From Candidatus Brocadia sapporoensis (GTDB taxonomy: Bacteria > Planctomycetota > Brocadiia > Brocadiales > Brocadiaceae), in NCBI RefSeq assembly GCF_001753675.2, contig NZ_MJUW02000056.1:1-42825 (forward strand): DNA of 42,825 nt. The letters run 5' to 3'. Position 1 is the first letter of the stretch; the number at the start of each line of letters is the position of its first letter. Shown in pieces: positions 1,980 to 36,086 of the stretch. The notes beneath the pieces were generated by a model that was not told the origin of the DNA, ran no database searches, and saw only the letters and a list, made by a program, of their open reading frames with translations. A program made the position numbers and the translations under genes.

Positions 1980-2004
1980 ACGCTGTTTTGTAAAAACCTT
2001 TATG

Positions 2005-2109
2005 GGAGGAATGACAATGTTGGAAAAAGCAGGAGAAAAACGGTTGGAAGACCGTGTAATTGAGCTGCAGGGGAAACCACCCTGCATGCTGGACAAAGAC
2101 CTGGCAAGG
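2005..2109 (+). repeat. 105-bp direct repeat, copy 1
   Basis: Bases 2005-2109 are identical to 2413-2517 (offset 408, a multiple of three). The repeat starts at the Shine-Dalgarno GGAGGA and covers the first 31 codons of ORF6N copy 1. Weaker similarity extends upstream into the palindromic operator and downstream through the ORF6N domain. Confidence 0.9.
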
Positions 2110-3081
2110 ATTTATGGGGTAGAGACAAGGCGACTCAACGAGGCACGGGAAAGGAATCCCAGGAAGTTTGTTGAGGATGTGGATTATTTCCAGCTTACAC
2201 AGGACGAGGTCAAAGCTGTCGACCTCGACTGGAAAGGTGGCCATCTGCCTTATATCTACACCAAGCGGGGCGCCTATATGTTTGCCACGATCCTGAGTAC
2301 GGATGAGGCAATACAGCAGGCATTGGCAGAGTTTGAAACCCTCTCAGAGTTCCCGCGTCCGGGACGCAATCGCGGATTGCATGGACGCCATTTCACAAAA
2401 ACCATTAGTACAGGAGGAATGACAATGTTGGAAAAAGCAGGAGAAAAACGGTTGGAAGACCGTGTAATTGAGCTGCAGGGGAAACCACCCTGCATGCTGG
2501 ACAAAGACCTGGCAAGGGCTTATGGGGTCGAGACAAGAGCACTAAATCAGGCACGGGAGAGAAATCCAAAGAAGTTTACGGAAGGGGTAAACTTCTATCA
2601 ACTCACAAAGGAGGAGGTCACCGTTTGTGATCACCTTGGAGAAGCCGATAAATACAGGTCGTCGCTGCCTTATGTTTATACCGAAGAGGGCGCCTATATG
2701 TTTGCCACGATCCTGAATACCGATGAGGCTATAAGGCATGCAATGGCTATTGTAAAAGGCTTTTGCACCTATTCGCTGCTTATGGAAGAGGTTAAGTCGG
2801 GCAGGATTACCCTAAAGCCGAATCCGCAGCCGGAGAGAAACGAAGTCGTCTTTGAAAACATGAGGAGGGAGTTGCTGGAGCGGTCGCCACTCTGGAGGAA
2901 GATCCTTCGGTATAAAGGGCTTGGCCTGAACCATCATGAGATTGCACTGCTAACCCATAAACAGATAGCCACCGTCCGGAGAAACGTCCGCCGGATGGAG
3001 GCTTGCGGTCTCCTTGTGCCTCCGCAAAATCTGCCGAAACTCCAGAAGTGCGTGGAGTATTTCAAAAACCGGTTGAATTAG
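2017..3081 (+). CDS. ORF6N-domain antirepressor-like protein with two fused ORF6N copies
   Basis: The protein has 354 residues. Residues 1-108 and 137-250 are two copies of an ORF6N domain (VIELQGKPPCMLDKDLARIYG, then ETRRLNEARERNPRKF), the DNA-binding domain common in phage antirepressors. The second copy is followed by a C-terminal region with winged-helix character (KILRYKGLGLNHHEIALLTH, TVRRNVRRMEACGLLV, about 290-335). The start is the ATG at 2017, six bases after GGAGGA; an ATG at 2011 is too close to it. The linker (about 109-136) is translated DNA matching the upstream leader and operator, which shows a tandem gene duplication fused by loss of the first gene's 3' half. A second start at 2425 would give an intact single-domain protein. 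The role is probably control of lysogeny or late expression (inference). Confidence 0.8.
   Translation: MLEKAGEKRLEDRVIELQGKPPCMLDKDLARIYGVETRRLNEARERNPRKFVEDVDYFQLTQDEVKAVDLDWKGGHLPYIYTKRGAYMFATILSTDEAIQQALAEFETLSEFPRPGRNRGLHGRHFTKTISTGGMTMLEKAGEKRLEDRVIELQGKPPCMLDKDLARAYGVETRALNQARERNPKKFTEGVNFYQLTKEEVTVCDHLGEADKYRSSLPYVYTEEGAYMFATILNTDEAIRHAMAIVKGFCTYSLLMEEVKSGRITLKPNPQPERNEVVFENMRRELLERSPLWRKILRYKGLGLNHHEIALLTHKQIATVRRNVRRMEACGLLVPPQNLPKLQKCVEYFKNRLN
2413..2517 (+). repeat. 105-bp direct repeat, copy 2
   Basis: Identical to 2005-2109. It retains the Shine-Dalgarno GGAGGA (2413-2418) and the ATG at 2425, so an internal translation start of a 218-residue protein is possible. Confidence 0.9.
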
Positions 3082-5870: not shown

Positions 5871-7436
5871 ATGATAATCAAAAAATTCTCCCGTCGCGAA
5901 TACGAACTCAGGGCAAAAGAGATCATCGCCCGCATGAAACAGGAGACTACGCCCTTTAAAGACAACTCCGAAAAGGCGAAAAAGGAGCGTATTGAACGGG
6001 CAAAGAAAGACCGTCTCTGGTTCTTTGTGACCTATTTCCCCCATTATTTCTCCAAACCCTTTGGCGATTTCCACAGGGAGTGGAACACCCTGGCCGACGT
6101 GGCTGACGAACCGGTCTTTATCGCTGCGCCCCGTGAGCATACCAAATCGACATTCTTCACCCTGGGCGTGCCGGTGCATGATATCTGTGCGGGAAAGAGG
6201 CATTTTATCCTGATCATCTCCGATACGGAAGACCTGGCTGCCGACTTCTCCCAGTTCATACAGCTTGAACTGGAGGAAAACGAGCGGATTAAGCAGGACT
6301 TCGGCGATCTGACTAACCAGGGCAACTGGGAATCGAAGGATTTTATTACGAAAAACGGCATCCGGGTAAAGGCGCGTGGACGTGGACAAAGGGTCAGGGG
6401 TCTCAGAAACCGGCAATACCGCGTGGATCGCATTGTGATTGACGACCTGGAAAACGATAAAAACGTTAAAAACCCGCGGCTGATTAAAGAAGGGATTGAC
6501 TGGCTGCTGGAAGCGGTGATCAACACCCTGGCAGAAGGTGGATCCATGACCATGATCGGGACGTTACTCTCAAAAAAGAGCGTCCTGGCGCAGATGATTG
6601 CGATGAAGGAAGAGGTTCCGGTTACAAACCTGAACCCGCATAAGGATAAAGGGGTGGGTGAAAACCCCCGTTTTATTTCGCGTCTCTACAAGGCCCTGGG
6701 CGATGACGGCAAACCCCTCTGGCCTGGCGGATGGACAAAGGAGCGCCTTACGCAGAAGAGGAAGCTGATTGGCTCCATACGGTTCAACAAGGAATACCAG
6801 AACGATCCGAAAGACGACGAAGGGTTATTCCGTGAAGAATGGATACGGTACTACCATCCCGAAGAGGTAATCGGCAAAACCCTGCGAAAATACGCAGCCA
6901 TTGACCCGTCTATGGAATCAGGGGCATCCAGCGACTACAAGGCCATCATCACCATCGGCATCGATCTGGAAGGCATTATCTACGTCCTGGACGCATTCAT
7001 CCGCAGGTGTTCGGTGGATACCATGGCGCGGGTGGGCTATAGCCGGTATGAGGAGTATAACCCGCTTGTTATGAGCATGGAAGAAAACGCCCTGGGCGAG
7101 TTTGCCAATAGCCCGTTTCTGCTTGTCTCGCGGGACAAGAAATATCAGTTGCCCTTAAAAGGGATAAAACAGACGATTTCAAAGGAGGCCAGGATCGGCA
7201 GGATATCGCCCCACGTGGAGCGCGGGCTGGTCAGATTCAGAAAAGGGCAGGGCGATCAGGACTTGCTGATCGAGCAGTTAATCTATTTCCCCTCGTCTGC
7301 GGTCAATGACGACGGCCCCGATGCCCTTGAGGGCGCCATTGACCTGGCTGAAAAAGGATCCGGCGTGATTGAATATCAGTCCACCGGCAAAAGGCGGCCA
7401 TCGATGGGCAGGGAAATGGCGAGATTTACAGCATAG
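5871..7436 (+). CDS. Terminase large subunit (DNA packaging ATPase and nuclease)
   Basis: A 521-residue protein. The ATPase domain has a deviant Walker A loop APREHTKST (86-94), a Walker B strand RIVIDDLE (187-194) and a coupling motif MIGTLLS (228-234). The RNase H-like nuclease domain begins about 340, with first acidic motif AAIDPS (D345), a middle EEN (404-406) and a last acidic motif DDGPDALEGA (480-489). It cuts and pumps concatemeric or host-joined DNA into proheads at the portal. Residues about 248-266 (VPVTNLNPHKDKGVGENP) look like an insertion coded by a dispersed repeat (see 6614-6641). The ATG at 5871 is preferred to the GTG at 5859, but neither has a clear ribosome binding site. 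Confidence 0.9.
   Translation: MIIKKFSRREYELRAKEIIARMKQETTPFKDNSEKAKKERIERAKKDRLWFFVTYFPHYFSKPFGDFHREWNTLADVADEPVFIAAPREHTKSTFFTLGVPVHDICAGKRHFILIISDTEDLAADFSQFIQLELEENERIKQDFGDLTNQGNWESKDFITKNGIRVKARGRGQRVRGLRNRQYRVDRIVIDDLENDKNVKNPRLIKEGIDWLLEAVINTLAEGGSMTMIGTLLSKKSVLAQMIAMKEEVPVTNLNPHKDKGVGENPRFISRLYKALGDDGKPLWPGGWTKERLTQKRKLIGSIRFNKEYQNDPKDDEGLFREEWIRYYHPEEVIGKTLRKYAAIDPSMESGASSDYKAIITIGIDLEGIIYVLDAFIRRCSVDTMARVGYSRYEEYNPLVMSMEENALGEFANSPFLLVSRDKKYQLPLKGIKQTISKEARIGRISPHVERGLVRFRKGQGDQDLLIEQLIYFPSSAVNDDGPDALEGAIDLAEKGSGVIEYQSTGKRRPSMGREMARFTA
6614..6641 (+). repeat. Dispersed 28-bp repeat inside the terminase gene, copy 1
   Basis: Matches 27381-27408 at 27 of 28 positions and 27671-27698 at 25 of 28. 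Here it is translated in-frame as VPVTNLNPH. The two other copies are in the near-noncoding right end of the prophage. Confidence 0.75.
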
Positions 7437-7464
7437 GTCTTATAAGACTTATAGGACATATTTT
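7434..7464 (+). repeat. TAGGTC-type spacer repeat, copy 2
   Basis: It begins at the TAG stop of the large terminase and fills the whole gap to the portal ATG: TAGGTCTTATAAGACTTATA, then GGACATATTTT. GTCTTATAAGAC is itself a perfect 12-bp palindrome. AGGA within it may act as the portal ribosome binding site. Confidence 0.7.
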
Positions 7465-9039
7465 ATGAAAAAACCAATAACCGACGAAATAACAACCATC
7501 AGAAACGATATAGTCATGGACTATATCGGCAGAACGGCGCTGAATCCCGACTCGCTGCTGAGGCTTGAAGGCAGCGGAAAAGGAATTGAGGTATATGAAG
7601 ACCTCCTGCGCGATTCAGAAGTCAGCTCCGCGCTGCAAACAAGGAAACTGGCTGTGGTGGGTAAGGAATGGGAGATCATCCCGGCGTCCGATGACCCCGA
7701 AGACGTGAAGATAGCGGACTTCGTAAAGGATGTATTCCTGGGCTTTGGCTATGACGATACGCGCAGGTCGCTCTTATCCGGGATTGTGCTGGGGTATAAG
7801 CCCGCTGAAATCCTGTGGGAATATTCTGAGGGCGACGTCTGGATTAAGGACGTTGTCGGGAAGGCATCCCGGCGCTTTGTCTTTGGCCTGGACGGTAATC
7901 TGCGATTGCTCACCCTGCAGAACATGATCGAAGGCGAGGAGCTGCCCGAACGGAAATTTATCGTGTACCGGAACGTCTCTGATAACGGCAGCTATTATGG
8001 AGACGGGCTTGGCAGGAATCTGTACTGGCCGGTATGGTTCCGTAAGAACGGCATTAAATTCTGGGCAATCTTCTGCGATAAATTCGGCTCGCCAACGGCG
8101 ATCGGTAAATATCCACCCGGCACCCCAAAGGAGCAACAGGACAAACTCCTGGACGCCGTTGAGGCGATACAACAGGAATCCGGCATTAAGATACCCGATA
8201 CCATGACCATAGAACTTCTGGAAGCGGCACGGACGGGCTCTATAAACACCTATGAAACGTTTTGCGCCTACATGGATAAAACGATCAGTAAGGTATTGCT
8301 GGGCCATAGCGCGGCGACAGAATCCACACCAGGCAGGCTGGGGAACGAGCAGCAATCGGTGGATATACGGAAGGATTACATCAAGGCCGATGCCGATTCA
8401 TTGTGTGAGTGCCAGAACAAGACGCTTATCCCCTGGCTGGTGGACTATAACTTCCCGAACGTGAAGGCGTATCCAAAGGTATGGATCCGCACGGAAGAGG
8501 AAAAGGATTTAAAGCCGCTTGCCGACCGAGATTTGATATTAGTCAGGGATTTGCGCCTGCCGGTGACGAAGCGGTATTTTTACGAAACCTACGGCATTCC
8601 GCAACCGGAGGACGGGGATGAATTGGTTGAGATGCCACAAACACAACCTCCTTTGTTCCCCTTTGTTAATGGGGAGAGACAACCCCCTTTGTCCCCCTTT
8701 ATTAAGGGGGATTTGCAGAATCAGCAATTTGGTGAATCCAGGTGTCCGCACTGCTTTGCCGGTAATAATTCCTCCTACCAGAGGGATAGGGGGTTGTTTC
8801 CTGATCAACAGACAATTGACGATACCATAGAGTCCCTGAAACCCGCAGACCTGCAGAAACAGATGGAAGGGGTATTAAAACCCATCATCGACATGATCCG
8901 GAGCGGATTAGACTATAACAAGATTCTGGAGAATCTTGCGGAGGCATATCCTGATATGGAGGACAAAGGTCTGGACGATATGCTTACGAGGGCCATCTTC
9001 GTAAGTGAACTCTGGGGGAAACTCAATGCCGGACGCTGA
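7465..9039 (+). CDS. DUF935 family portal protein (Mu gp29-like)
   Basis: A 524-residue protein of the Mu gp29-type portal family, forming the ring through which DNA enters the head. Recognisable parts are the N-terminal YEDLLRDSEVSSALQTRKLA with AVVGKEWEIIPA (about 35-70), the central FCDKFGSPTAIGKYP (about 208-222), and LLGHSAATESTPGRLGNE (about 277-294). Residues about 394-418 (PPLFPFVNGERQPPLSPFIK) are unlike portals. They are coded by GC-rich palindromic repeats, so the domain tolerates a repeat-derived insertion. The ATG at 7465 follows the AT-rich spacer; the frame opens at 7369 inside the terminase gene. It overlaps the MuF gene by 14 bases. Confidence 0.88.
   Translation: MKKPITDEITTIRNDIVMDYIGRTALNPDSLLRLEGSGKGIEVYEDLLRDSEVSSALQTRKLAVVGKEWEIIPASDDPEDVKIADFVKDVFLGFGYDDTRRSLLSGIVLGYKPAEILWEYSEGDVWIKDVVGKASRRFVFGLDGNLRLLTLQNMIEGEELPERKFIVYRNVSDNGSYYGDGLGRNLYWPVWFRKNGIKFWAIFCDKFGSPTAIGKYPPGTPKEQQDKLLDAVEAIQQESGIKIPDTMTIELLEAARTGSINTYETFCAYMDKTISKVLLGHSAATESTPGRLGNEQQSVDIRKDYIKADADSLCECQNKTLIPWLVDYNFPNVKAYPKVWIRTEEEKDLKPLADRDLILVRDLRLPVTKRYFYETYGIPQPEDGDELVEMPQTQPPLFPFVNGERQPPLSPFIKGDLQNQQFGESRCPHCFAGNNSSYQRDRGLFPDQQTIDDTIESLKPADLQKQMEGVLKPIIDMIRSGLDYNKILENLAEAYPDMEDKGLDDMLTRAIFVSELWGKLNAGR
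8648..8718 (+). repeat. Palindromic repeats embedded in the portal gene
   Basis: CCCCCTT-TATT-AAGGGGG (8693-8710) is a perfect inverted repeat and CCCC(8658-8661)...GGGG(8671-8674) a shorter one, within two related units beginning CCTTTGTTCCCCTTTGTTAA and CCTTTGTCCCCCTTTATTAA. These are typical dispersed intergenic repeats, here read in-frame. Confidence 0.75.
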
Positions 9040-11556: not shown

Positions 11557-11631
11557 GTTCGAGCGGTATAAAACAGGGGTTCAAATTGTAAAGGAACCCG
11601 CATGAAATAGAATAGAATGAAATCGTTAGTG

Positions 11632-11658
11632 CAGAGACGCACGGCCGTGCGTCTGTAC
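11632..11658. repeat. Palindromic repeat (AGACGCAC family), copy A, intergenic
   Basis: AGACGCACGGCCGTGCGTCT (11635-11654) is a perfect 20-bp palindrome, followed by GTAC. It lies 18 bases before the protease start. Related copies B, C and D are inside the protease gene, and half-copy E lies at 16017. Confidence 0.9.
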
Positions 11659-11675
11659 TATTTGAGGAGTAATTG

Positions 11676-12854
11676 ATGCAAAACACAGAACAGTGGATAC
11701 CGGTTTTTAAGACCGGCACGCATACGGATTCAGCAGGCAATGAAAAGACCTGGACGGATGCAGACCTGGATAAGATCGCTGCAAGTTATCATCCGGCAGG
11801 GCACGAAGCTCCGGTCGTTATCGGGCATCCGAAAGACAACAGCCCGGCTTTTGGCTGGGTGGAAGGGTTAAAACGGGAAGGAGATATCCTCTACGCTAAA
11901 TTTAAAGACCTTGTGCCCGAATTTGTGGATATGGTGCGCAAGGGGTTATTCAAAAAGCGATCCATCTCACTGTATCCGGATTTGGGATTAAGACACGTGG
12001 GGTTTTTAGGCGCCGTGCCACCGGCAGTGAAAGGACTTCCGGACGTGGCGTTTAACGATAAAGACGGGATTATTATTGAATTTGGCGATTGCAAGACATG
12101 TAAGGGCTGTGAACAATTAAACAATTTTTGCGCAACCGTAGAGGCGCACAGCCGTGCGTCTGTACAAAATGCGGGAAAGGAAGTGAAGATGAAGTGGTTT
12201 GAGTGGATGAAGAAAAAGGCCGCTGACGAAGGGGTGACGATTGATGATGCCCAATCGTTCAGCGACGTAGAGACGCACGTTCGTGCGTCTGTACCGGCAG
12301 CGGTGGATATTGAGGCCGAGGTGGCAAAGAGGGTGAAGGCGATGGAGCGGGAATTTGCCGAAAAATTAGCCGCAGAGACGCAAGGTCTTGCGTCTCAAAA
12401 GGCAGCGCTGGAGACGGAAAAGGCAAAGCTGGCGGCTGCGAAGGCTGAAAAGGTAAAGGCGGATATCAAAGATTTCTGCGAGGGGCTTTGTAAAGAAGGG
12501 AAACTCACCCCGGCCATGACGAAGCACGGCATGGGGATGCAGACCTTTCTTGAGCGGATTGCGGAGATCGAGGCACCGGTTGAGTTTTCTGATGGCGATA
12601 CGAAGAAAACTCAAACGCCGTTCGACTTTATGACGTCTTTCCTCTCGTCTTTTAAGAAGCAGATCGAGTTTGGCGAGGTTGCCGGTGCGGATAAGGATAT
12701 CGGCAGAAAAGGCAACGCAGGTGAAAAGATCGCCGTGCTCATAAAGGACAAGATGGAGAAGAATAAGGACATGTCTTACAAACTGGCATTTACTGAGGTG
12801 CAGAAAGAGCACCCGCAATTGGTGCACGAATACAAGGAGGATTTATGGCAATAG
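11676..12854 (+). CDS. Mu gpI-like prohead protease fused to scaffold
   Basis: A 392-residue protein. Residues 1-135 are the maturation protease: WTDADLDKIAASYHP, the conserved VIGHPKDNSPAFGWVEGL (48-65), LFKKRSISLYPDLGLRHVGF (91-110) and LGAVPPAVKG. Ser98 and His107 are the likeliest catalytic residues by comparison with HK97-type prohead proteases. Residues 172-392 are a scaffold: a charged coiled coil (VAKRVKAMEREFAEKLAAET) and a helical tail. Three palindromic repeats are read in-frame (about residues 155-164, 198-207 and 232-241). GAGGAG precedes the ATG at 11676; TTG at 11673 is adjacent. A CKTCKGC motif (139-145) in the linker is unexplained. Confidence 0.85.
   Translation: MQNTEQWIPVFKTGTHTDSAGNEKTWTDADLDKIAASYHPAGHEAPVVIGHPKDNSPAFGWVEGLKREGDILYAKFKDLVPEFVDMVRKGLFKKRSISLYPDLGLRHVGFLGAVPPAVKGLPDVAFNDKDGIIIEFGDCKTCKGCEQLNNFCATVEAHSRASVQNAGKEVKMKWFEWMKKKAADEGVTIDDAQSFSDVETHVRASVPAAVDIEAEVAKRVKAMEREFAEKLAAETQGLASQKAALETEKAKLAAAKAEKVKADIKDFCEGLCKEGKLTPAMTKHGMGMQTFLERIAEIEAPVEFSDGDTKKTQTPFDFMTSFLSSFKKQIEFGEVAGADKDIGRKGNAGEKIAVLIKDKMEKNKDMSYKLAFTEVQKEHPQLVHEYKEDLWQ
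12138..12165 (+). repeat. Palindromic repeat (AGACGCAC family), copy B, coding
   Basis: GTAGAGGCGCACAGCCGTGC then GTCTGTAC; the arms carry one or two mismatches. Translated in the protease frame as VEAHSRASV. It lies in the linker just before the nested scaffold start. Confidence 0.85.
12189..12854 (+). CDS. Nested scaffold protein (Mu gpZ-like) from an internal start
   Basis: The ATG at 12189, in the frame of the protease gene, is preceded by GGGAAAGGAAG and begins MKWFEWMKKKAADEGVTIDD, which reads like a native N terminus. It would give 221 residues, mainly coiled coil, matching the scaffold half of the protease-scaffold fusion. In Mu and lambda the scaffold is likewise made from an internal start in the protease gene. 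Two palindromic repeats (copies C and D) fall inside it, adding VETHVRASV and AETQGLAS. Expression from this start is inferred. Confidence 0.6.
   Translation: MKWFEWMKKKAADEGVTIDDAQSFSDVETHVRASVPAAVDIEAEVAKRVKAMEREFAEKLAAETQGLASQKAALETEKAKLAAAKAEKVKADIKDFCEGLCKEGKLTPAMTKHGMGMQTFLERIAEIEAPVEFSDGDTKKTQTPFDFMTSFLSSFKKQIEFGEVAGADKDIGRKGNAGEKIAVLIKDKMEKNKDMSYKLAFTEVQKEHPQLVHEYKEDLWQ
12267..12294 (+). repeat. Palindromic repeat (AGACGCAC family), copy C, coding
   Basis: AGACGCACG-TT-CGTGCGTCT (12271-12290), flanked by GTAG and GTAC. Translated in-frame as VETHVRASV, the same frame and nearly the same peptide as copy B. Confidence 0.9.
12371..12397 (+). repeat. Palindromic repeat (AGACGCAC family), diverged copy D, coding
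   Basis: GAGACGCAAG-GT-CTTGCGTCTC (12375-12396) is a perfect inverted repeat. Read in-frame as AETQGLAS inside the scaffold coiled coil. The arm sequence differs from copies A-C but symmetry is kept. Confidence 0.8.
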
Positions 12855-13254: not shown

Positions 13255-13650
13255 ATGGCAACAGAAAATGGAGTACTGGATTTGTCGTTCGAGGCCGCAG
13301 AGAGCCTTACGAATGACCAGTACCGGTTTGTGGTGTTGACAACCGATAGTCCGGCAAAGGTACGCAGGCCGGACGCACAGAATGAAATCCCTTTTGGCGT
13401 TCTGCAAAACGCCCCTGCCTCCGGCGGAGCCGCTGTGGTGCGCAGGCTTGGAGTGACAAAATTGCAGGCAGGTGCCGCGTTAACGAACAACACCTTTGTG
13501 CGCATTGAGTACAATGACGCAGCAGACGCAGGCAAGGCTGTGCCCCTTGTGGCGAATGAAGGTTATGCGGTGGGCCTGGTGGTTGGCAGTGCATCGGCTG
13601 AGGATGATTTGGCGACCGTGGATCTGATACCGGCAACGCCGGGAATCTAA
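13255..13650 (+). CDS. Capsid decoration-like protein, paralogue 2
   Basis: A 131-residue protein of the same length as paralogue 1 and clearly homologous: MATENGVLDLSFEAAESLTN, then RRPDAQNEIPFGVLQNAPAS, GAAVVRRLGVTKLQ and DAADAGK. AAGGAGG precedes the ATG. The two genes are a tandem duplication with 15 bases between them. Two forms may occupy different capsid positions or be alternatives. The family assignment rests on position and fold pattern rather than an exact match. Confidence 0.7.
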   Translation: MATENGVLDLSFEAAESLTNDQYRFVVLTTDSPAKVRRPDAQNEIPFGVLQNAPASGGAAVVRRLGVTKLQAGAALTNNTFVRIEYNDAADAGKAVPLVANEGYAVGLVVGSASAEDDLATVDLIPATPGI

Positions 13651-13652
13651 CA

Positions 13653-13688
13653 GCATAAGTCATATAGGACTTATAGGACTTATTTTTT
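13653..13688 (+). repeat. TAGGAC-type spacer repeat, copy 3
   Basis: Three nearly tandem units: CATAAGTCATATAGGACTTA, then TAGGACTTATTTTTT. It lies between a TAA stop and the ribosome binding site of the exported protein gene. Confidence 0.7.
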
Positions 13689-13700
13689 GGGAGGAAGAAC

Positions 13701-14075: not shown

Positions 14076-15053
14076 ATGACACAACCAAACACGCGGTCGC
14101 AGCTTGTTGCCGGGCCGCTGCAAAACGTAAGCATTGCATACCGCAACAAAAGCTACATAGCTGACAGGGTTTTTCCTATTATTGACAACGTGCCGCCGGA
14201 TGCGAAGATTGCCCGATATCTCAAAGGCGCATGGTTCAGGGATGAGGCCGGGATTCGTGGCCCGGGTGCACGGGCAAACCGCGGGGGATATCCAGTGGAT
14301 TACCTGGATATTTCAACCGTAGAATACGCTTTTGCAAAGGAAGTGACGGACGAAGACAGGGAAATTGCGAGGCTGGGCAATGCTCCACCGCTGAACCCTG
14401 ATCAGGACGCTATAGAGTTTGCAACGGACAAGATAGATTTAAAAAAGGAGCGCAGGACGGCCGCCATTGTGCTTGGTTCTACCTGGTCTGGTGCTGCCGG
14501 TGAAGATGCGGATGGGAAATGGGCTGCCGGTACCGGAAACACATTCCTGGAGGACGTGAGGCTGAGGGTGGGAACGATACGCGCAAATACCGGGATGAAA
14601 CCCAATGTCCTGGTTGTGGATTTTGGCACCTACAACAGCCTTAAAGAAGAGTCCACGGTCCTGAGCAAGATTCAATATACTGAACGTGCTGTATTAACAA
14701 AGGAGCTCCTTGCAGCCATCCTTGAGCTTGATGAAGTGCTTATCGGTGAAGCAATATACTCCACAGCGAAGGAAAAGAAGGACGGTACGGACTTTACGGC
14801 AAGCAACATTTGGGAAAAGAATGCCGGTAAAGGCTCCGCATTTCTCTTCTACCGTCCGCCAGTTGCAGGACTCAAGACCCTGAGTGCGGGTTATCAGGCC
14901 CGGAAGTCATATCTCCAGGGCGGAGGAAGGCGAATAACCACCTGGAGAGAACCGGCAGAACACCAGGATGTTTATGAGGTGGCCGAAGAGACGCACATCC
15001 TTCAGGTCGGAGCCGATCTGGGATTTCTCTGGTACGACACGCTTTCAACATAG
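14076..15053 (+). CDS. Major capsid protein
   Basis: A 325-residue protein by size and position: after protease, scaffold and decoration genes, before DUF1320. Useful segments are SIAYRNKSYIADRVFPIID near the N terminus (about 19-37), EVTDEDREIARLGN (about 89-102) and KPNVLVVDFGTYNSL (about 180-194). Near the C terminus come FLFYRPP and QARKSYLQGGGRRITTWREP (about 273-297) with a final VEVAEETHILQ-like strand, the typical order of HK97-fold capsids of transposable phages. Mass should be near 36 kDa. AGGAGG precedes the ATG at 14076. No N-terminal delta domain is obvious, in keeping with a separate scaffold. Confidence 0.85.
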   Translation: MTQPNTRSQLVAGPLQNVSIAYRNKSYIADRVFPIIDNVPPDAKIARYLKGAWFRDEAGIRGPGARANRGGYPVDYLDISTVEYAFAKEVTDEDREIARLGNAPPLNPDQDAIEFATDKIDLKKERRTAAIVLGSTWSGAAGEDADGKWAAGTGNTFLEDVRLRVGTIRANTGMKPNVLVVDFGTYNSLKEESTVLSKIQYTERAVLTKELLAAILELDEVLIGEAIYSTAKEKKDGTDFTASNIWEKNAGKGSAFLFYRPPVAGLKTLSAGYQARKSYLQGGGRRITTWREPAEHQDVYEVAEETHILQVGADLGFLWYDTLST

Positions 15054-15070
15054 GTCTTATAGGTTATATA
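15050..15070 (+). repeat. TAGGTC-type spacer repeat, copy 4
   Basis: Starts at the TAG stop of the major capsid gene (TAGGTCTTATAGGTTATAT) and fills the gap up to the ATG of the next gene. Confidence 0.6.
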
Positions 15071-15498
15071 TGTCCTATTCCAATTTAACAGACATTGAAA
15101 AGCTGCTTCCGGAAACGGCAATCATTCAATTGACGGATGATGAAAATATCGGTACAGCAAATGAAACACGGGTAAATGAATCTATCGCACAGGCCGATGC
15201 GGAGATTGACAGCTATTGCGGGGGACGGTACACCGTCCCCTTTGCTGCCGTGCCAGATATTGTGAAGAAGATATCCGTGGACATCGCCATTTACAACCTC
15301 TATTCGAGAAGAGTTGAGGAGATACCGGAAACCAGGGCAGAGAGGTATAAGAATGCGATACGGCAATTGGGCGACATTGCATCGGGCAGGATATCCATCG
15401 GAGAACCCGGTAGTATTGTAACCGAGGCTGGCGGGGTGCAGACAAACACAACGATGGACGACAGGGTCTTTACGAAAGGCACGATGGTGAGTTTCTGA
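15070..15498 (+). CDS. DUF1320 family head-tail connector (Mu gp36-like)
   Basis: A 142-residue protein with the DUF1320 pattern: an N-terminal helix YSNLTDIEKLLPE, then ETRVNESIAQADAEIDSYCG (about 38-57), GRYTVPF, and a helical core VKKISVDIAIYNLYSRR (about 70-86) followed by YKNAIRQLGDIASGRISIG. Mu gp36 belongs to this family and joins head and tail. The ATG at 15070 is placed at the end of the AT-rich spacer; no strong Shine-Dalgarno is seen. The frame is open upstream inside the capsid gene. Confidence 0.8.
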   Translation: MSYSNLTDIEKLLPETAIIQLTDDENIGTANETRVNESIAQADAEIDSYCGGRYTVPFAAVPDIVKKISVDIAIYNLYSRRVEEIPETRAERYKNAIRQLGDIASGRISIGEPGSIVTEAGGVQTNTTMDDRVFTKGTMVSF

Positions 15499-15937: not shown

Positions 15938-16059
15938 AAGAAACCATCGTGAACGTTATAGATTCCTGGCATTATTTAGAAGCGTTTCTGTTTCTTATGG
16001 CGCTTTATATAGTGGTCCGTGCGTCTGTACGGTGTTTATTATTTTTATGGGAGGAATGA
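15931..16059 (+). CDS. 42-residue membrane peptide containing a repeat-derived segment
   Basis: An ATG at 15931 overlaps the DUF1834 stop (ATGGTGA). The peptide is MVKETIVNVIDSWHYLEAFL, then FLMALYIVVRASVRCLLFL and WEE. One hydrophobic helix covers about residues 18-40. The VRASV part is encoded by a half-copy of the AGACGCAC palindrome family (16017-16030), in the same frame as in the scaffold gene. The stop overlaps the ribosome binding site GGGAGGAATGA of the next gene. Whether it is expressed is uncertain. Overlap with both neighbours is the best support. Confidence 0.4.
   Translation: MVKETIVNVIDSWHYLEAFLFLMALYIVVRASVRCLLFLWEE
16017..16030 (+). repeat. Palindromic repeat (AGACGCAC family), half-copy E
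   Basis: CCGTGCGTCTGTAC equals the right half of copies A-C. The left arm is missing, so the copy cannot form the hairpin. Confidence 0.65.
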
Positions 16060-27324: not shown

Positions 27325-27380
27325 CTTTGATTTTAAAAAGTTGATCCACAAGGTGCTTTCGGCAACACAGATCAAGGTTG

Positions 27381-27408
27381 GGTTCCGGCTACAAACCTGA
27401 ACCCGCAT
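27381..27408 (+). repeat. Dispersed 28-bp repeat, copy 2
   Basis: 27 of 28 bases match the copy inside the terminase gene at 6614-6641. It lies in non-coding sequence here. Confidence 0.75.
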
Positions 27409-27453
27409 GGGGGACGCAAAGAAAAGATGAAGAATGCCTTGCGATATACAATG

Positions 27454-27557: not shown

Positions 27558-27842
27558 GTGGACGGAAGGGAAAGCGTTACTAAAAAATTGGGATGTTTGC
27601 AGGATGCTCGACCAGGGTGTCGATCCGCGAGGAGAGTGTCGCAGTCGGCCTGCAAAGGATTGGAAGGTTTGGTCCAGGTTGCAAACCTGAACCCGCATAG
27701 GGAATATCCCACTACCTTGAAATTGCCGGATAGTATCGGGAATTCTAAAAAAGAAAGGGAGGTAATTGATGGAAGAAAAACAGGATTTAATAGCGAAGGA
27801 TGGGCAGGAACTAAAACGGTTAAAGGAGCACAGGGAATTTGA
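27558..27842 (+). CDS. Doubtful small reading frame at the right end
   Basis: A GTG start five bases after AAAGGAGG would give 94 residues. The composition (Gly, Arg, Ser, Thr-rich) shows no fold signal, and part of the frame is the 28-bp repeat (copy 3), read as VQVANLNPH. The final third shadows the next reading frame. It is listed because of the ribosome binding site only. Confidence 0.25.
   Translation: MDGRESVTKKLGCLQDARPGCRSARRVSQSACKGLEGLVQVANLNPHREYPTTLKLPDSIGNSKKEREVIDGRKTGFNSEGWAGTKTVKGAQGI
27671..27698 (+). repeat. Dispersed 28-bp repeat, copy 3
   Basis: 25 of 28 bases match 6614-6641, and the last 17 bases (CAAACCTGAACCCGCAT) are identical in all three copies. Confidence 0.7.
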
Positions 27843-36044: not shown

Positions 36045-36086
36045 ATAAACATGAAGGACAACCACGTGGTTGTCCTTCATGTTTAT
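36045..36086. terminator. Perfect 42-bp palindrome after exported peptide gene 1
   Basis: Arms of 21 bases, ATAAACATGAAGGACAACCAC and its exact complement, meet without a loop at CACGTG. It likely forms a transcript-ending hairpin, although the T-run is only TTTAT inside the arm. The companion gene has a similar CACGTG-centred hairpin. The region 36087-36650 beyond it shows no gene. Confidence 0.65.

Follow-up and report, generated by a model that had tools for sequence, protein, structure and literature searches.

Copies of a putative double-foot GTAG REP in and beside a prophage protease/scaffold gene of an anammox planctomycete

While REPs by default sit near gene borders, intragenic copies occur in many genes, some of them in-frame, as set out by Di Nocera et al. 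(2013, PMC3733652). For one type, the double-foot REPs, in-frame copies are already known inside the tnpA_REP genes of subclass 2.4 (Quentin et al. 2018, PMC6006769), and a REP within its own transposase gene was therefore dropped here as a novelty. Palindromic elements are likewise known from Rickettsia (RPEs). Here, we describe a palindrome of this kind that is repeated in a phage head gene; the open-access literature searched yielded no description of several REPs within one phage head gene, and a search of the literature for the palindrome DNA or its peptide string returned nothing relevant.

The window, by which we mean the whole stretch analysed (42,825 nt of contig NZ_MJUW02000056.1, Candidatus Brocadia sapporoensis), holds prophage genes and, from about 28.8 kb, host-type genes for an aquaporin, menaquinone synthesis, RecQ and a sugar kinase. 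The genome encodes hydrazine synthase alpha (HZS_alpha), which identifies the host as an anammox planctomycete. Four copies, A to D, of the 28-base near-perfect palindrome GTAGAGACGCACGGCCGTGCGTCTCTAC lie within 11631-12396, in and just 5' of a single prophage gene (Table 1). The initial annotation had taken this recipient for a phage head gene, and the profile match to head maturation protease/scaffold proteins bears that out, with 62 phage records matched and with neighbours that include a Mu-like portal, a MuF-like protein, a Mu-type virion morphogenesis protein, a scaffold-like protein and the major head protein; on either side are genes for terminase, tape measure and fibres. Among 392 genomes of the phylum, a search for homologues of the protease returned only one more. 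Elsewhere in the window, the portal gene (7468-9036) carries another small repeat family, in-frame CCCCTTT..AAGGGG palindromes read as PPLFPFVNGE and PPLSPFIKGDL (window 8679-8714 and nearby) with a 36-bp match in locus L025 of genome G015, and the anti-repressor gene (2002-3078) has an internal duplication (2005-2212/2413-2620, 86% identical) and two ORF6N-type stretches.

Table 1. Palindrome copies and the genes that carry them, in window coordinates
Feature	Position	Strand	Sequence	Context
Copy A	11631-11658	.	GCAGAGACGCACGGCCGTGCGTCTGTAC	Intergenic, non-coding; 17 nt 5' of protease ATG (11676)
Copy B	12138-12165	.	GTAGAGGCGCACAGCCGTGCGTCTGTAC	In-frame VEAHSRASV; protease-scaffold linker; 23 nt 5' of probable scaffold ATG (12189)
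Copy C	12267-12294	.	GTAGAGACGCACGTTCGTGCGTCTGTAC	In-frame VETHVRASV; scaffold part
Copy D	12372-12396	.	GCAGAGACGCAAGGTCTTGCGTCTC, sub-variant AGACGCAAGGTCTTGCGTCT	In-frame AETQGLASQ; helical scaffold part
Half-copy E	16019-16030	+	GTGCGTCTGTAC	12 bases; VRASV in small ORF
Head maturation protease/scaffold gene (phrog_976)	11676..12854 (ORF 11673..12854)	+		E 3e-83; carries B, C and D
Probable nested scaffold ORF	12189..12854	+		Own start MKWFEWM..., AAGGAAG before it

The pattern AGACGCACNNNCGTGCGTCT, searched on both strands of the window with up to three mismatches, gave eight matches against a mean of 0.05 in 100 dinucleotide shuffles of the same DNA, the maximum being two. All of the copies that had been listed from the sequence at the outset were recovered, including half-copy E, which falls beyond the interval first indicated, the peptides claimed for B, C and E were read as given, and B, C and D share one frame; E itself could be a chance match or a decayed copy. 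Copies A to C end 3' in GTAC, and copy D is without a 3' foot. Since a stem change in D is compensated (CAAG..CTTG) and the similarity between copies reaches little into their flanks, they are unlike simple tandem duplicates. Other repeats in the window include a TATAGG/CTTATA-type repeat at prophage gene borders (7428-7467, 13650-13689, 15045-15084), partly read as HRSYKTYRTYF-like peptides; a GGTTC...GAACC-armed repeat (6607-6645, 27374-27412, 27664-27702), similar palindromes to which adjoin RAYTs in other Brocadiaceae (L040, L184); and, in the host part, a perfect 42-bp palindrome without a loop (36045-36086) that is likely a terminator or another repeat.

By its motifs and architecture, the palindrome is assigned to the 'double-foot' GTAG REPs, a type associated with subclass 2.4 of the RAYT (TnpA_REP) transposases. 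The element has GTAG...CTAC/GTAC ends and arms of 10-14 bp, and the family consensus, GTAGAGACGCAC....GTGCGTCTCTAC, in which the GTAG positions have frequencies of 0.83-0.95 at both ends (200 copies), shows the GT[AG]G 5' and C[TC]AC 3' ends on a long stem that mark a double foot. It also behaves as REPs in general do, being 20-40 bp long, mostly extragenic and present in several copies per genome, though this genome has four, all in the prophage. What counts against the assignment is that GTAG is here paired with CTAC, or nearly so with GTAC, whereas the usual REP foot is unpaired. A MITE, which would measure 70-300 bp and have terminal inverted repeats and a target duplication, was considered and rejected for an element of 28 bp.

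The tie to the transposase is seen in relatives. RAYT genes located via the ORFs around palindrome copies, in Brocadiaceae and in distant phyla, Bacteroidales included, contain the same palindrome in-frame. It lies there between the HUH and Tyr motifs, in the loop that runs from the HUH motif to a later SISSFxxGFKS motif; many of these genes have matching palindromes both upstream and downstream. In a comparison of motifs, the RAYTs observed have NHLH/NHIH, WQ and YIRTNP/YIxNNP, where subclass 2.4 has NH[IFV]H, WQ and YIxNNP. Other RAYTs of the clade contain different internal palindromes that match their own flanks, and the palindrome is missing from the RAYT genes that score best against PF01797. 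This genome's one RAYT of the clade is without such a palindrome and the only copies are those of the prophage, so no enzyme that could have mobilised them is apparent here. Separately, in a set of Brocadiaceae RAYT genes (L214-L236), internal and flanking palindromes agree within each RAYT and differ between RAYTs, which makes the set suited to testing transposase-REP co-evolution.

A pattern search of the host genome, as the initial annotation had advised, found the element confined to the prophage, with one divergent relative elsewhere (C116:10370). Twenty of 59 related genomes, this one included, carry the palindrome, with 0-18 copies per genome across the Brocadiaceae. G015, from another genus, has five copies: four around the homologous prophage, and one in a 362-bp segment that is 95.6% identical to prophage DNA. 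Beyond the Brocadiaceae, the exact element occurs, among the matches listed, in Bacteroidales, Spirochaetes, Desulfobacterota, Cloacimonadota, Chloroflexus and others, while in IMG/VR it is carried by 13 stretches. One 15-kb viral contig there (L163/L168, IMGVR_UViG_3300027852_000244) is dense in copies, several of them in a frame that reads RDARPCVST. When the Brocadiaceae copies were tabulated by coding status, 55 of 84 proved non-coding, 12 lay in RAYT genes and 17 in other ORFs.

An alignment of the scaffold with relatives lacking the element had also been suggested, and it places copies C and D in stretches missing from eight of eight: G015, whose protein is 54% identical, the IMG/VR relative L159 and six other phages. 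On these alignments C and D are taken to be derived insertions. The linker that holds copy B is filled in other ways. In L159 it contains the same REP, read as VETHSRASL, 38 nt 5' of a scaffold ATG with a strong Shine-Dalgarno sequence (GGAGGAG); in G015 it contains an unrelated CCCCCTTT/AAAGGGGG palindrome, read as PPLEKGG, and an CCCCCTTT-type palindrome also stands upstream of the G015 protease at the position equivalent to that of copy A. A linker of HsdM (L277-L295) similarly carries this REP in five Brocadiaceae genes, a TTGACAATGGA repeat in five and neither in three. A clean empty/filled pair with a simple gain of 28-30 nt was not found, and the filled HsdM sites also differ in their flanking codons. 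The Met at 12189, common to the window, G015 and L159, probably starts a nested scaffold; in all three a linker palindrome is followed by a ribosome-binding-like sequence and this conserved Met, and in phage KS10 a nested gp29 is annotated. An AlphaFold model built from two sequences (mean pLDDT 56) has copy B in a low-confidence stretch, which fits a linker and is not evidence for one.

The arrangement is very probably the product of repeated REP insertion, with copies kept at sites that leave the frame open and that the protein can accommodate. The element would be a short mobile palindrome spread by RAYT/TnpA_REP HUH transposases of subclass 2.4. Since copies are found in prophages and not in the rest of each genome, the phages may have gained them in other hosts or while a cognate RAYT was present; the prophage lineage here probably acquired its copies, moved by the transposase, in cells that had one, and this genome no longer shows it. 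The surviving insertions would then be those that do no harm: A precedes the protease gene, B occupies the linker just ahead of the nested scaffold start, and C and D fall in a loosely constrained part of the scaffold, their peptides being presumably neutral.

The positions of A and B admit a second reading, which we regard as unlikely, in which both form RNA hairpins that adjust the translation of protease and scaffold or their stability, and C and D are by-products. On this improbable account, the prophage lineage would have co-opted mobile palindromes from unrelated families, each independently, to serve as hairpins ahead of the starts of the protease and the nested scaffold, where they would help to set the protease:scaffold ratio, and the in-frame peptide would be the price of a hairpin at an internal start. 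The short distances from A and B to an ATG (Table 1) agree with such a role, as do the placement of the L159 copy before its strong Shine-Dalgarno sequence, the presence of an unrelated palindrome at both corresponding positions in G015 and the folding of these RNAs, which is better than that of shuffles (z -1.9 to -4.3). Against it, a linker palindrome of any kind is found in only one of six more distant phages, L159 is without a palindrome before its protease, hairpin sequence and distance vary, and placement at gene borders is the REP default according to PMC3733652.

Repeated insertion has also to account for the reading frame, which had been described initially as always the same of six. 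Because either strand of the palindrome yields almost the same peptide, the distinct frames number three instead of six: frame 0 gives V-E/Q-T-H-G-R-A-S-L/V on either strand, frame 1 gives RDARPCVST, and frame 2 meets a TAG stop from the GTAG end, unless that end is GTAC. With three frames, one of them with TAG, the agreement of B, C and D within one gene is weak evidence alone. The favouring of one frame nevertheless extends well beyond the window, as a bias and not a rule. Of 21 copies within RAYTs, 20 use frame 0, and the one that does not sits in an N-terminal extension. Among the 17 Brocadiaceae copies in other ORFs, 14 are in frame 0 (one of these in a broken RAYT) and three in frame 1. 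When homologues were merged, terminal elements dropped and coding status judged from codon usage outside the element, 22 non-RAYT genes had frame 0 only, eight frame 1 only, two both and none frame 2. The bias is towards frame 0 (frame 0 against frame 1, one-sided binomial p 0.008, for a sample drawn by DNA pattern in which gene independence is approximate). A second palindrome family, GGGACACGG, is read in frame 1 inside its RAYTs, so the frame used depends on the palindrome family. The common frame would follow from the TAG in one of the three frames and from VETHGRASL being seemingly better tolerated than RDARPCVST.

The initial annotation had likened the repeat to the Rickettsia elements, and the likeness stands in so far as a dispersed palindrome lands in genes with the frame intact; it fails in length and lineage, the present element being a putative 28-bp double-foot GTAG REP linked to RAYT. 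Identity with an RPE was rejected, as these measure 100-150 bp (PMC3767692) and belong to Rickettsiales, not to an anammox planctomycete. That the repeat is nonetheless an RPE-like coding element, with selection on the peptide itself keeping the frame constant, is highly improbable: in-frame insertion, a preferred frame and the recurrence of V-E-T-H-G-R-A-S-L in unrelated proteins would fit, but two thirds of the Brocadiaceae copies are non-coding, 8-10 genes use the other frame, and both size and taxa differ. Scarcely credible at all are ancestral scaffold peptides whose DNA likeness arose by coincidence or codon convergence, since the B peptide does recur at the same place in L159, but as the same REP matching at 26 of 28 DNA bases between proteins merely 36-44% identical, while the absence of C and D from G015, L159 and the six phages refutes ancestry for those two, and A lies outside any gene.

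Taken as repeated REP insertion, the locus would place phage structural genes within the reach of RAYT-type palindromes and would mean that a prophage can hold a REP family missing from the rest of its host genome. A single linker struck by unrelated repeat families, in the phage protease-scaffold protein and also in HsdM, may mark insertion-tolerant seams in proteins, and VETHGRASL-like peptides in unrelated anammox and Bacteroidales proteins would be REP translation products, not domains.

Among known systems, the Mu-like protease/scaffold genes gp28-gp29 of BcepMu and KS10 belong to the same gene family and have a nested scaffold, but those phages are without such a REP insert. The Rickettsia and Wolbachia palindromic elements also land in genes frame-intact, with suspected hot spots, although they measure 100-150 bp, belong to Rickettsiales and have no demonstrated sequence relation to the window element. 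The GTAG REPs of PMC3733652 are 20-40 bp GTAG-tagged palindromes, mostly intergenic with some copies translated in genes; the recipients named there are cellular genes, and in the window element the GTAG is paired. The element itself is grouped with the double-foot REPs of TnpA_REP subclass 2.4 (PMC6006769). The window copies differ from these in their location, a head gene of a prophage, in that no cognate transposase was detected in the genome, and in a 3' foot that is often GTAC; the family as a whole has in common with them a long stem with GT[AG]G at one end and the complementary C[TC]AC at the other, in-frame copies inside the transposase gene, between its HUH and Tyr motifs, as well as on its flanks, and a distribution scattered over phyla.
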